Shown here piece after piece: positions 19,924-26,097 of a stretch of 64,000 bases of DNA (position 1 is its first letter; each line of letters opens with the position of its first letter). The notes under the pieces are model-generated. The model made no database searches. It was given only the letters and a program-made list of their open reading frames with translations, and was not told the origin of the DNA. The translations under genes were made by a program, and so were the position numbers. The DNA comes from an uncultured bacterium (GTDB lineage Bacteria > Bacteroidota > Rhodothermia > Rhodothermales > Rubricoccaceae): NCBI GenBank assembly GCA_947493945.1, contig CANLSR010000003.1:62001-126000 (forward strand), in the 5' to 3' direction.

Positions 19924-20979
19924 CTAGCCCACGGGAAGCCTCGCCTTGGCCGGCAGCCGCGCCGGAACGGCGGCTGGCCGGACGGCGCGGGCGACCGGCA
20001 CCGAGAGCTCCTCGTCTTCGGGTCGCCAGGTGTGGAGCAGGTCCAGGACGGGATCGCGCTCGCCGTGCTCCATCAGCCGCATTCGCAGCTGGCTGGCGCC
20101 GCGGTGGCCCTTGAAGTAGCCGCCGTACATCCTCCGCATCTCCAGCACGCCCTTGCGCTCGCCCAGCCAGGCGCACTTTAGCGTCAGGTGCTCGGCCACG
20201 ACCGACACGCGCTCGTCCCACGACGGCGGGTCGGGCGTCTCGCCGGTCTCCAAGAGCGCGCGCGCGTCGCGGAAGATCCACGGGTTGCCGATGGCACCGC
20301 GCCCGATCATCACGGCGTCGACGGGCGTCTCCTCGAACATGGCGCGGACGCGTTCCGGCGTCGTCGCGTCGCCGTTGCCGATGAATGGGATGTCGTGCAG
20401 GGCGGCGCGGATGCGGGCAAACCACTCCCACCGCGCCGTGCCCCGGTACATCTGGGCGCGCGTGCGGGCGTGGACCGCCAGCGCGGCGATGCCGGTGGCC
20501 TCCAGCATCCGCGCGACGTCCTCGATCTGGATCGACTCGTCGTTCCAGCCCAGCCGCGTCTTGACCGTCACTGGCCGCGTCGCCGTGTCCACGACGGCCC
20601 CGGTGATGGCCTCCATCTTGGCCAGGTTGCGCAGGATGCCCGCGCCGCCGTCTTTGCAGACGACCTTTTTGACAGGACACCCAAAGTTGATGTCCACCAG
20701 GTCCGGCTCCTGGGCGTCGGCGATGCGGGCCGCCTCCCGGACCTGGTCGAGGTCGCCGCCGAAGATCTGGATGCCGACGGGCCGCTCCTCGGGGTAGAAC
20801 TCCAGCTTTTGCACCGATCCCTCGGCGCCGTAGGTCAGGCCGCCGGCCGAGATGAACTCGGTGTACACCAGGTCGGCGCCGTACCGCTTGCAGATCAGGC
20901 GGAAGGGCGGGTCGGAGACGTCCTCCATCGGGGCGAGGAGGAGCGGGCGGGGGCCGAGGTCGAGGCTGCCGATGCGCAT
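19924..20979 (-). CDS. dusB: tRNA-dihydrouridine synthase
   Basis: 351 residues from ATG 20979 (MRIGSLDLGPRPLLLAPME). FMN-binding barrel motifs: LAPMEDVSDPPFRLICKRYG, DINFGCPVKKVVCKDGGAG with the catalytic Cys, VKTRLGW, ALAVHARTR, IPFIGNGDATTPE and VMIGRGAIGNPWIF. Reduces uridine in the D-loop of tRNAs with NADPH. The order and the VKKVVCKD loop fit the DusB branch found across Bacteroidota. The last 30 residues are Ala/Pro/Arg-rich and not part of the fold. A longer in-frame start upstream is not supported by any conserved residues. Confidence 0.92.
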   Translation of the reverse strand: MRIGSLDLGPRPLLLAPMEDVSDPPFRLICKRYGADLVYTEFISAGGLTYGAEGSVQKLEFYPEERPVGIQIFGGDLDQVREAARIADAQEPDLVDINFGCPVKKVVCKDGGAGILRNLAKMEAITGAVVDTATRPVTVKTRLGWNDESIQIEDVARMLEATGIAALAVHARTRAQMYRGTARWEWFARIRAALHDIPFIGNGDATTPERVRAMFEETPVDAVMIGRGAIGNPWIFRDARALLETGETPDPPSWDERVSVVAEHLTLKCAWLGERKGVLEMRRMYGGYFKGHRGASQLRMRLMEHGERDPVLDLLHTWRPEDEELSVPVARAVRPAAVPARLPAKARLPVG

Positions 20980-21427
20980 ACCCCAACCTACCGCGCCGCT
21001 GGCGGCCAGGTCCGTGAGAGGTCGGAGAGTTCCGCGGTCAGCAGAAGACGCGAGCCGCTGGCGGGACGCACCGCCAGCCGGACGCACCGAAAGCTCCTCG
21101 CTCTCTCCGACCGCCCCGCCTGCGTGCGCAGGGCTGTTAGGTTCTCCGGCGCCGTGCCGATCCCAGTCACCTCCACGAGTCTTACGACCAGACCACCACC
21201 CGCGTCGCCGTCGACTTTGTCCTCGATCTCCTGAACGCGAGGCAACTAGGACGCGCTCTATGCCAGAGGCCCTCACCATCGTGTTCGACGCAGCGGAGGT
21301 CTAGTGAGAGCATAGCCATCATGGGAGGCAGAAAACCCAAGTGACTTTCGATCAAGTCATCAATACAATAATCACAGCGGCGGCTCAACCGAAGCCGGAC
21401 CGCCCCTGCGGGAGGCTCCGAAATCAA
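20980..21427. other. 448-bp region without a recognisable gene
   Basis: It begins GC-rich with octamer copies (GCTGGCGGG near 21057), then becomes clearly less GC-rich from about 21160. Short frames exist, such as one on the plus strand ending at the TAG at 21302, but none has a family signature, so I call no gene. The composition change runs into the following fulvocin-like gene and may mark a segment of different origin. Confidence 0.5.
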
Positions 21428-22330
21428 TTATACTTGGTCGCCGAAGTTGCACGAGGGCGCGTTGGGGTGCAAATCGCAGTAGCCACCACTTCCGGGGCAT
21501 CCCTCTCTCCCAGGGTACACATCGCATTGGCACTGATTCGAGTACGGGTTCTGCGAGCAGTCTGTCTCGCAGGGGTTGTAGTCGCAGTACGTATCGTCGA
21601 TTGGCAGTGGCTCGCCGGGCTCCTGCGAGCACTTACCTGTGCAGGATGCTGTATCGAACGGGCCGCACCCAGTCGGAGTCGAATCGCAACCACCGTTCGA
21701 GTAGCAGCCCGCTCCGGGTCCGAAGTACGTCTCGCAATAGTTGCCGTCTTGGTTATTGCAGTTGCAGATCTGCTGGGGTGTCGAGTTGTGGGTTGTTGTC
21801 AAGCTACTTTGGGAAACTCCGTTCAGGCCTTGGGCAGCCCCCCCCAACACGTCGGGTTGGAACGGGTATCCGACATCAAACAAGACCCGACGCGAGGTCT
21901 CACGGCCGAGGAGGACTTGGAGCGCCTCTAAGTCGACGGCCTCGACAAGCTCGCTTGAGCCAGGCTCGAACATGGTGGGTCGGAGCGCATTGCGGAGGTC
22001 GGCGAGGGCGGCGCGCTGAGGTTGTGTCATCTCGCTTCCCTCGCGGATGTAGTAGTCGAGTTGGGCGATCCAAATTGCCATGCGCCCAGGAGCGGTAAGC
22101 CGGTCCATGACTTGGGTTCGGTACTCTGGCGGGAGCGTAGACAGAGCTGTCCATGAAGTCGGGAGGGTGTCGCCCTTAGCCTCGGCCCACGCCTTGGCGG
22201 CGTCGCAGCCGCGCTTGAGGTCGGTTTGAAAGCTAGCGAGGGAGGGAACAGCAGGGGCCGAGTTGGAGACGTCACAGCCATTGAGGGCGAGGCTGACCGC
22301 CAAGGCAAGACAGACGAAGACTCGTGACAT
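21428..22330 (-). CDS. Fulvocin C-related cysteine-rich lipoprotein
   Basis: 300 residues: lipobox LALNGC at 14-19, a helical middle part (30-175), then a Cys-rich C-terminus. Residues 189-234 carry eight cysteines spaced C-x-C, 7, 9, 5, 6, 7, 3, with STPTGCG near the centre. As I recall the sequence of fulvocin C, a 45-residue Myxococcus bacteriocin with eight cysteines, the order, the 5- and 6-residue gaps and TPTGCG coincide. Residues 249-294 hold eight further cysteines (CDYNPCETDC, CQCD) not in fulvocin C. Related proteins in Bacteroidota are annotated only as fulvocin C-related. Secretion as a lipoprotein is implied; toxicity is not shown. The gene is distinctly less GC-rich than its surroundings, and no immunity or export gene is evident. 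Confidence 0.75.
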   Translation of the reverse strand: MSRVFVCLALAVSLALNGCDVSNSAPAVPSLASFQTDLKRGCDAAKAWAEAKGDTLPTSWTALSTLPPEYRTQVMDRLTAPGRMAIWIAQLDYYIREGSEMTQPQRAALADLRNALRPTMFEPGSSELVEAVDLEALQVLLGRETSRRVLFDVGYPFQPDVLGGAAQGLNGVSQSSLTTTHNSTPQQICNCNNQDGNYCETYFGPGAGCYSNGGCDSTPTGCGPFDTASCTGKCSQEPGEPLPIDDTYCDYNPCETDCSQNPYSNQCQCDVYPGREGCPGSGGYCDLHPNAPSCNFGDQV

Positions 22331-22514
22331 GGTATAGGAGAGCAGTAAGAGGGACCGCGGCGGTGGGGAGAAGCTGCATTATATTAAAATTCTTGATGCG
22401 TTCCAATAAAATTGTGGCTTAGCGCCCCGAGGCCTGCGCGGGGACGTGCAGCAAGGCAGGGCGCAACCCGTGGGGCGGATGTGCCGTAGAGCCGCCCGAT
22501 CTCTCCCGAACCCC

Positions 22515-22745
22515 ATGTCGCTCGTCCTCGCCGCGTCGCTGGCCGGCCTCGCCAAGACGCTCCTGCTCACGCTGATCGCCGTCCTCAACGTCGTGCTGGC
22601 GCTGCTGGCGTCGCTGGCGACCTGGAAGACCTACCTCGCCATCGGCGCCAAGGTGGGGCTGATCGCCCTGTTCTGCATTCCCATCGTGGGCGTGCTGCTG
22701 TTTCTGGTGTGGGGCCAGCGCGTCGTGCGCGGCAACCAGCGCTAG
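22515..22745 (+). CDS. Small two-helix membrane protein
   Basis: 76 residues from ATG 22515, preceded by CCCGAACCCC. Two strongly hydrophobic segments (residues 2-36 and 44-66) end in a basic tail. The second half (KVGLIALFCIPIVGVLLFLVWG) resembles the PLDc_N/phospholipase-D-nuclease N-terminal pattern found in many small membrane proteins of unknown role. Its stop codon lies in the first copy of a 27-bp tandem repeat. A similar small membrane protein follows after 156 bases, so the two may be functionally linked. Confidence 0.6.
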   Translation: MSLVLAASLAGLAKTLLLTLIAVLNVVLALLASLATWKTYLAIGAKVGLIALFCIPIVGVLLFLVWGQRVVRGNQR

Positions 22746-22824
22746 CCGGACGGCGCAGCCAACCAGCGCTAGCCGGACGGCGCAGCCAACCAGCGCTAGC
22801 TGGACGGCGCAGCCAACCAGCGCT
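22733..22824. repeat. 27-bp tandem repeat, about 3.4 copies
   Basis: Full copies at 22733-22759, 22760-22786 and 22787-22813, then 11 bases of a fourth. The copies are identical except for one C to T in the third. The first copy contains the last codons and stop of the small membrane protein gene. An octamer GACCGCCAGCGGGG follows. Confidence 0.9.
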
Positions 22825-22901
22825 CGCCGCGACCGCCAGCGGGGCGCGGGATCGTACCGTCCGCCGGCGGGTTCAGCCCTTCCCTTCTCCTCTCTCCGAC
22901 T

Positions 22902-23171
22902 ATGTCTCGTCTACACCTCCTCCCCGCCCTCCTCCTCACCGCGCTGGCGGTTACGCTGAGCGGCTGCGTCGGCGGCAACGTCGGCGACCTGCTGGGCAGC
23001 GCCGGCGGCGGCGTCTGCGGCCTGCTCATCCTGATCGCCGACATCTGGGCGTTCGTCAAGATCGCCAACAGCGCCGCCGACACCGGCTCGAAGCTGCTCT
23101 GGGCCGCGCTGGTGTTCTTCTTCCCTGTCGGCGGCCTGCTGATCTGGTACTTTTTCGGCCCGAAGGGCTAG
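22902..23171 (+). CDS. PLDc_N-domain small membrane lipoprotein
   Basis: 89 residues. A signal segment with possible lipobox (VTLSGC) is followed by a Gly-rich stretch and a two-helix PLDc_N-type domain: LILIADIWAFVKIANS and GSKLLWAALVFFFPVGGLLIWYFFGPKG, where W....P.GG..WYF.GPKG is diagnostic. PLDc_N occurs in stress-related small membrane proteins and cardiolipin synthase N-termini; function on its own is unknown. It is convergent with the next gene, overlapping its stop by four bases. Confidence 0.75.
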   Translation: MSRLHLLPALLLTALAVTLSGCVGGNVGDLLGSAGGGVCGLLILIADIWAFVKIANSAADTGSKLLWAALVFFFPVGGLLIWYFFGPKG

Positions 23172-24313: not shown

Positions 24314-24456
24314 AGCGCGCGCGCGGCGGACCGCGGGATGGGAGGGTGAGCCGGATCGTAAGGTATCCGTCCCGCAGGCGCTCCACAACCTCCGCGTGCG
24401 CCACCGCGCGCAAACGCCGCTCGCCCCCCGCTCCCCCTCCCCTTTTTGCTGCCCCC

Positions 24457-24789
24457 GTGGACACGTACTACAAGCCCGAGCACCTCCCCCGTTTTCCCGA
24501 GATCGCCGAGGGCTCCGGGCCCCTCGCCGACGCGTTCTTCAGCTACTACGGCAAGGTGTTCGAGGACGGGGCGCTGACGGCGCGCGAGAAGGCCTTGATC
24601 GCGCTCGCCGTCGCCCACACGGTCCAGTGCCCGTACTGCATCGACGCGTACACGCAGGAGTCGCTGGCCAAGGGGTCGGACCTGGAGCAAATGACCGAGG
24701 CCGTCCACGTGGCCACGGCGATCCGGGGCGGCGCCTCGCTCGTCCACGGCCTCCAGATGCTCGACGGCGTCAAGGCGCAGACGATGTAG
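24457..24789 (+). CDS. Arsenosugar biosynthesis-associated peroxidase-like protein
   Basis: 110 residues from GTG 24457 (VDTYYKPEHLPRFPEIAEG); the longer frame to 24346 is Arg-rich and lacks similarity. Carboxymuconolactone decarboxylase/AhpD fold: helices with EKALIALAVAHTVQCPYCI, where the C-x-x-C is the redox site and the His follows ten residues later in related proteins as EAVHVAT. The opening YYxPExLxxFxxI marks the subgroup found next to arsS. It directly precedes arsS (120-base gap, same strand), supporting a joint role in arsenosugar formation, though its reaction is unknown. Confidence 0.88.
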   Translation: MDTYYKPEHLPRFPEIAEGSGPLADAFFSYYGKVFEDGALTAREKALIALAVAHTVQCPYCIDAYTQESLAKGSDLEQMTEAVHVATAIRGGASLVHGLQMLDGVKAQTM

Positions 24790-24909
24790 CGGGCCCGGCG
24801 GGCCGCCCGCTCTGCGCCGGGCGGCCCGTGTCAGACAACCGCGCACATCGCCGCTGACCTCGACCGCCAGCGGCCGGCGCCCGTTGGCCCCCGACCTTCC
24901 CCCCGCCTC

Positions 24910-26097
24910 ATGTCCAGCTCTCCCGGCACGCCCGGCCCCGCGACAGCGGGGGACGCCGCGATCTCCCTCCCCGTCCTCTCGGCCGAGCTCATGGCCGACG
25001 TCATGGACGGCCCCAAGCAAACGACGAGTTTGTACGGCCGCCGCACGCCGCTCGCGGAGCCGGCGGCCCAGATCGCGGCCCTCGACGCCGTACCGCTGGC
25101 GGCCGGCCCGAGCGGGACGGGGAGCTTCCACCGCGACCTGGTGGCGAGCGGGTGGGCGGAGGGCCTGAGGCCGGCCGCGCTGGAGGTGTTCCAGGTCAAC
25201 ATCGGCAAGCTGTGCAACATGACGTGCCGGCACTGCCACGTGGACTCGGGGCCGGACCGGACCGAGGAGAACATGGACCGCGCCGCCGTGGACGCGTGCC
25301 TCCAGGCCATCGACCACATCCAGGCCCACCCCGACGGCGGCTCGCTCCACACCGTCGACCTGACGGGCGGGGCGCCCGAGCTCAACCCGCACTTCGAGTA
25401 CCTCGTCGACGAGTGCGTCGCGCGCGGGCTCCACGTGATCGACCGCTGCAACCTGACCATCTTGACGGTCCGCCGCTACCAGCACCTGCCCGAGTGGCTC
25501 GCCGAGCGCGGCGTCGAGGTGGCGTGCTCGCTCCCCCACTACCGCCAGCTCGGCACCGACGCCCAGCGCGGCGACGGCACGTATGGAAAGTCGATCCGCG
25601 CGCTGGGGCAACTCAACGAGGCCGGCTACGGCCAGGGCCACCCGGACCGCGTGCTGACGCTGGTGACCAACCCGGTCGGCTCGTTCCTGGCGGGCGCCCA
25701 GGCGTCGCTGGAGAGCGAGTGGAAGGCGGCGCTGGAGCGGAACCACGGCGTCCAGTTCGACCGCCTGTTCGCCCTCAACAACATGCCGATGAGCCGCTAC
25801 CTGGAGTGGCTCATCGACAAGGGGCAGCTGGCGGCCTACATGGACCGGCTCCTGAGCGCCTTCAACCCCGGCGCCATCGACGGCGTGATGTGCCGGAACA
25901 CGGTCTCGGTCGGGTGGGACGGCGGGGTCTACGACTGTGACTTTAACCAGCAGCTGGAGATGGACGCGGCCGTGCCGTTCGCCACCGTCGCCGACTTCGA
26001 CCTCGGCGCGTGGCAGGCACGGACGGTCCGCACGGAGCGCCACTGCTACGGGTGCACGGCCGGCGCCGGCTCCTCGTGCGGCGGCGCGACGGCGTAG
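24910..26097 (+). CDS. arsS: Arsenosugar biosynthesis radical SAM protein
   Basis: 395 residues. The radical SAM cluster motif is CNMTCRHC near residue 102, in NIGKLCNMTCRHCHVDSGP as in ArsS. Further marks are DLTGGAPELNPHF (GGE-type motif), IDRCNLTIL, LVTNPVGSFLAG, and the C-terminal cysteine set in SVGWDGGVYDCDFNQQLE and HCYGCTAG, typical of the DUF3641 domain. The family makes the adenosyl-arsenical precursor of arsenosugars by transfer of a 5'-deoxyadenosyl group to methylated arsenic. ArsM, which supplies methylated arsenic, is not in the window. The C-terminus ends GSSCGGATA. Confidence 0.93.
   Translation: MSSSPGTPGPATAGDAAISLPVLSAELMADVMDGPKQTTSLYGRRTPLAEPAAQIAALDAVPLAAGPSGTGSFHRDLVASGWAEGLRPAALEVFQVNIGKLCNMTCRHCHVDSGPDRTEENMDRAAVDACLQAIDHIQAHPDGGSLHTVDLTGGAPELNPHFEYLVDECVARGLHVIDRCNLTILTVRRYQHLPEWLAERGVEVACSLPHYRQLGTDAQRGDGTYGKSIRALGQLNEAGYGQGHPDRVLTLVTNPVGSFLAGAQASLESEWKAALERNHGVQFDRLFALNNMPMSRYLEWLIDKGQLAAYMDRLLSAFNPGAIDGVMCRNTVSVGWDGGVYDCDFNQQLEMDAAVPFATVADFDLGAWQARTVRTERHCYGCTAGAGSSCGGATA

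Follow-up and report, generated by a model that had tools for sequence, protein, structure and literature searches.

Fulvocin C in its mature form, a free peptide of 45 residues, is among the few myxobacterial bacteriocins of known sequence, and to our knowledge it is the only member of its family for which antibacterial activity is known. Myxococcus fulvus produces the peptide (Tsai and Hirsch, 1981, as cited in PMC8708641). In the portions of the literature covered by our search, where fulvocins and the family name rarely appear, a gene or precursor for fulvocin C was not found. The family itself is named and little studied, and is represented by the NCBIfam model NF033852 ("bacteriocin fulvocin C-related protein"), which has a curated cut-off of 35 bits. 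A system of comparable layout is known from haloarchaea, in which the protein ProC8 is matured into an immune peptide, HalI, and a peptide, halocin C8 (PMC11509114).

Herein we analyzed a 64,000-nucleotide stretch of DNA, referred to as the window (contig CANLSR010000003.1, positions 62,001 to 126,000), from an uncultured bacterium of the Rubricoccaceae (Bacteroidota). An initial annotation, made from the letters alone, had noted a gene for a lipoprotein that resembles fulvocin C, is followed by a further eight-cysteine segment, and might be the precursor of a disulfide-rich antibacterial peptide. What is new here is the tail of this protein, which is unique in our sample.

Results

The gene has an ATG start and, according to the open reading frame list, encodes a product of 300 amino acids on the minus strand, which the initial annotation had not specified. 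Its features are as follows.

21428–22330, minus strand: gene for a putative exported lipoprotein, fulvocin C-related (open reading frame; match to NF033852)
22274–22330, minus strand: putative signal peptide and lipobox L-N-G-C with the lipid-carrying Cys19 (from sequence; the N-termini of L008–L011 are lipobox-like too)
21833–22246, minus strand: helical leader domain, residues 29–166, homologous to the leaders of other members (NF033852, helices, motif)
21629–21766, minus strand: fulvocin C-like eight-cysteine core, residues 189–234 (NF033852 to model position 150, alignment, spacing)
21449–21586, minus strand: second eight-cysteine segment, residues 249–294, four C-[DS]-x2-P-x4-C units (not in the homologues examined)
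22378–22406, minus strand: promoter-like TTGGAA-17-TATAAT, ∼48 bp upstream of the start codon (consensus match only)

When the lipobox was tested against [LVI][ASTVI][GAS]C, Leu −3 and Gly −1 fitted and Asn −2 was atypical. The leader, inside which the NF033852 match begins, is helical within residues 29–166 according to a single-sequence structure prediction of low confidence (pLDDT 38), and it contains a W.....LP....S..P..YR-like motif that is common to the homologues L009 and L106. A linker rich in Ser, Thr, Asn and Gln (approximately residues 167–188) leads into the core, and the core and tail are acidic (pI ∼4). Both blocks of eight cysteines lie where the initial annotation had placed them, with the TPTGCG signature that it had recognized in the first block, and the lower GC content that it had remarked upon is real, as the gene has a GC of 0.61 compared to 0.73 for the window and, in a comparison made within the window, a GC3 of 0.72 compared to 0.92–0.99 in the neighboring genes.

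NF033852 matches residues 75–235 of the protein over model positions 5–150, well beyond what chance would give (62.4 bits, E 8.5e-17). The span takes in the first block of eight cysteines along with the helical part, and on this profile the window protein is a divergent member of the named family. It has the features of the family, which are export (judged by sequence), a predicted helical leader that precedes the core, and an eight-cysteine core with xGCG. Since NF033852 is an independent curated model, the resemblance to fulvocin C that the initial annotation had drawn is confirmed, and the core cysteines line up in the family alignment. The fulvocin C sequence used for comparison matches the same model at positions 108–148 (E 1.1e-6) and shares 51% identity with a protein that is encoded on a plasmid of Streptomyces goshikiensis and carries the annotation bacteriocin fulvocin C-related. 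The core spacing is 1,7,9,5,6,7,3 in the window protein, 1,6,5,5,6,7,3 in the gene-encoded fulvocin C-like protein L106, and 1,6,5,5,6,6,1 in the comparison sequence of fulvocin C. The window protein and fulvocin C have the same eight-cysteine order, near-identical spacing and TPTGCG, but the core of the window protein is internal to a putative lipoprotein, has a longer Cys3–Cys4 gap and is then followed by the tail. Compared to the NF033852 members, it has the same leader and eight-cysteine core over model positions 5–150, and differs in its extra residues past the core and the eight more cysteines that they contain.

Outside of the cysteines the core of the window protein is poorly conserved, no 7-column stretch of the core is conserved in the alignment, and in a tree with long branches the protein was unplaceable. 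Pfam yielded no family for the whole protein, the core or the tail, a PDB search gave no meaningful match, and neither a phage search nor a scan of genome contigs with fulvocin C as the query gave any match. Full-length relatives end in a cysteine-rich domain as a rule, and helical-only relatives that lack the core also exist (L005, L006).

Myxococcota genomes were reached by means of the Myxococcus protein MglA, whose identity was confirmed with the PDB. Members of NF033852 (105–125 bits) were found in 14 of the 96 genomes in the family of genome G712, which we take from its Myxococcus locus L018 to be the Myxococcaceae. In L106 (Myxococcaceae), the core comes after a signal peptide and a ∼150-residue leader, and the last 45 residues, directly before the stop, are identical to the comparison sequence of fulvocin C at 30 of 45 positions (67%), with cysteines at 3, 5, 12, 18, 24, 31, 39, and 43. 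Because this fulvocin C-like core forms the C-terminal end of a precursor whose leader is the same, the precursor proposed in the initial annotation gains support at the level of the family, and L106 provides the strongest evidence for it. Our survey indicates that fulvocin C would be released from the C-terminal end of an exported, helical-leader precursor. The last two spacings are equal in L106 and the window protein (7, 3), whereas those of the fulvocin C comparison sequence are 6 and 1, and this mismatch may be genuine or may stem from a mistake in the comparison sequence or in the sequence published in 1981. The core of L106 ends in ACNGDCLY where published fulvocin C presumably ends in CACNGNFY, and the 1981 C-terminus may merit a check.

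The leader-plus-core layout was found in Myxococcaceae, Minicystis, Bacteroidota, and Streptomyces plasmids, which indicates that this type of precursor is scattered sporadically across Myxococcota, Bacteroidota, and the Streptomyces plasmids. Members from Bacteroidota (L008–L011 and L157) have lipobox-like signal peptide ends, the leader and the eight-cysteine core, Minicystis rosea has two convergent family genes, and the Streptomyces plasmid members start with a thioredoxin-like CxxC part (judged by sequence). Streptomyces sp. NBC_00012 carries a tandem pair in which the leader is identical and the cores are 52% identical (42% outside of the cysteines), and a near-identical plasmid in NBC_00046 has one copy only. 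In the tandem genes of L099 (4908–5978 and 6203–7273; L013), the thioredoxin-like part is identical along with the leader and the cores differ, and the single copy on the near-identical plasmid looks like the product of recombination between tandem copies. A general rule that cores evolve faster than leaders was considered and rejected, as it holds for the Streptomyces tandem pair and not for the other close pairs.

Location of the core at the extreme C-terminus is the rule in our sample, a feature that is outside the curated definition of NF033852. Among the 26 homologues measured, 25 stop 1–3 residues past the last core cysteine, the sole exception being L009 with a cysteine-free tail of 31 residues, and five further homologues (L098, L103 twice, L107, and L157) end no more than four residues past it. 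The window protein has 66 residues after the core compared to 1–4 in 30 of the 31 homologues. A check for the second eight-cysteine segment in relatives found it in none of the 31. The tail is ruled out as a second fulvocin core by its spacing (4,3,8,1,8,6,8) and by its unit structure, which consists of CDYNPCETDC, CSQNPYSNQC, CDVYPGREGC, and CDLHPNAPSC; four such C...P....C units never arose when the residues were shuffled 200,000 times, and they arose in 71 of an equal number of shuffles that kept the cysteines in place. At the DNA level, unit 1 resembles both the core and unit 4, and unit 2 resembles the core's end, a pattern that suggests local duplication. We propose that the tail is a lineage-specific addition that would have come in part from core and linker sequence duplicated locally. 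Searches with the tail of Pfam, the PDB, and plasmids gave no match, and in the order it gave weak, chance-like matches only, at loci without repeated C...P....C units. One occurrence of the tail motif elsewhere in the genome was dismissed as likely due to chance, a reversed control pattern having more.

The gene lies by itself in an insertion between conserved neighbors.

20992–22482, no strand: low-GC insertion of ∼1.49 kb with this gene alone inside (missing at the site in the sister species G048 and G049 and in G043)
19924–20979, minus strand: left flank, dus (tRNA-dihydrouridine synthase), a conserved neighbor
22446–23171, plus strand: right flank, a pair of conserved neighbors that encode small membrane proteins, with PLDc_N in the second

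In the two sister species and in G043, which represents another genus, dus and the next small genes are adjacent, ∼120–190 bp apart. The insert has a GC of 0.616. Neither a recombinase among the open reading frames nor a convincing repeat at the flanks or RNA gene was recognized, a search for RNA families gave no match, and the insertion itself contains no protease, immunity or export gene. The empty site in relatives together with the low GC3 argues for horizontal gain, apparently a recent one, and horizontal transfer of the gene is the simplest reading of these data. In the class, members over the NF033852 cut-off are present in 2 of 245 genomes (the window genome and G370), and G105 has a broken family copy with a frameshift and a stop codon (L004 and L007, on contig C84). 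A stand-alone, secreted leader-like gene without a core is found in 2 of the 114 genomes of the order, namely the window genome (G000:C12:93595–93999; L006/L155), where it sits on another contig and is unlinked, and G029 (L156). Farther along the window, at 24346–26097, a small enzyme-like gene precedes a radical SAM-like one that has a CYGCTAG motif at its C-terminus, and by eye the two resemble an arsenosugar biosynthesis pair.

Discussion

The reading that we prefer, to which we assign a probability of roughly 0.5, is that the gene encodes a membrane-tethered fulvocin-type precursor that was acquired horizontally and has a lineage-specific tail. This is based on the 62-bit match to NF033852 across leader and core, with fulvocin C falling on the same model, on the precursor layout of L106 and its recurrence in several groups, and on the Streptomyces tandem pair, which is as expected for a peptide selected for variety. 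The homology, the architecture, the insertion and a tail unique in our sample are shown by the data; we infer that the window protein would be toxic, that it would be cleaved and that its location would be the cell envelope. Following export by Sec and lipidation at Cys19, the lipid and the helical leader would hold the protein in the envelope, and the eight-cysteine domain at the C-terminal side would, by analogy with fulvocin C, oxidize into a compact disulfide-bonded peptide. Proteolysis in the linker could free a peptide of ∼46 residues, or ∼112 if the tail is retained, or the fulvocin-type domain may instead be displayed on the cell surface. The tail might act as a second module, or as a cap that is removed by trimming. 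Counted against this reading are the 66 residues past the core, unlike 30 of 31 homologues, the lack of a protease, immunity or export gene in the insertion, and the weak conservation of the core outside of the cysteines, a hypervariable core not being general in the family.

A possible, if doubtful, alternative is a surface lipoprotein without antibacterial action, in which the fulvocin-like domain and cysteine-rich tail form a disulfide-locked module for display or adhesion. The lipobox and N-terminal tether, a long tail that breaks the family rule, the low pI of core and tail, and the lack of toxin-system genes nearby would all be consistent with such a role, but fulvocin C, the only characterized relative, is a bacteriocin, and a single-gene insertion found so sporadically in the class (2 of 245 genomes) is more like an accessory gene for competition than a structural gene. 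We consider it rather unlikely that the protein is a two-module precursor that arose in one lineage after horizontal gain, in which a fulvocin-type peptide is joined to a new, repeat-built cysteine module that caps it, guides it or adds a second activity.

ProC8 provides a precedent for a further, unlikely reading, namely a self-immune precursor like that of halocin C8, in which the leader would be the immunity part and the cysteine-rich part the peptide antibiotic, such that one gene would be enough. Like the window protein, ProC8 is an exported precursor with an N-terminal protein part and a C-terminal cysteine-rich peptide antibiotic, but it differs in its Tat export, in its peptide and in the leader immunity that is reported for it (PMC11509114). 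No immunity gene adjoins the window gene, and the leader-like gene that stands alone elsewhere in this genome, and otherwise occurs in just one of the 114 genomes of the order, fits this reading and is no proof of it; that gene is, however, on another contig and may have a different role, and G029 carries one without a full-length gene. A decaying import that lost its original stop, gained its tail by drift and is now functionless would account for the unique tail and long branch, the small duplications between tail and core and the broken copy in G105, but is very unlikely given an intact reading frame, a promoter-like site, a lipobox, all eight core cysteines and tail units of a regularity that no residue shuffle reproduced.

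The precursor layout opens the biosynthesis, release, and immunity of fulvocin-type peptides to direct testing, to which the window gene contributes a new cysteine-rich tail variant and a clean insertion site. Next after each of the two Myxococcaceae genes nearest to fulvocin C (L138, 8603–9910, and L140, 6089–7420) comes a ceramidase-like gene (PF04734) with a membrane-anchored product, a candidate immunity or lipid-targeting partner. Thioredoxin-like CxxC parts occur beside the fulvocin-type protein in Bacteroidota or are fused to it in Streptomyces (L148, 13403–14341; L013, L015, and L098), perhaps for disulfide handling. The proteins of two loci on Rubrobacter and Thermomicrobium plasmids (L100, 3983–5146, and L101, 3998–5017) have the same thioredoxin-like and export part but finish with other long cysteine-rich domains, and are encoded near S8 proteases.
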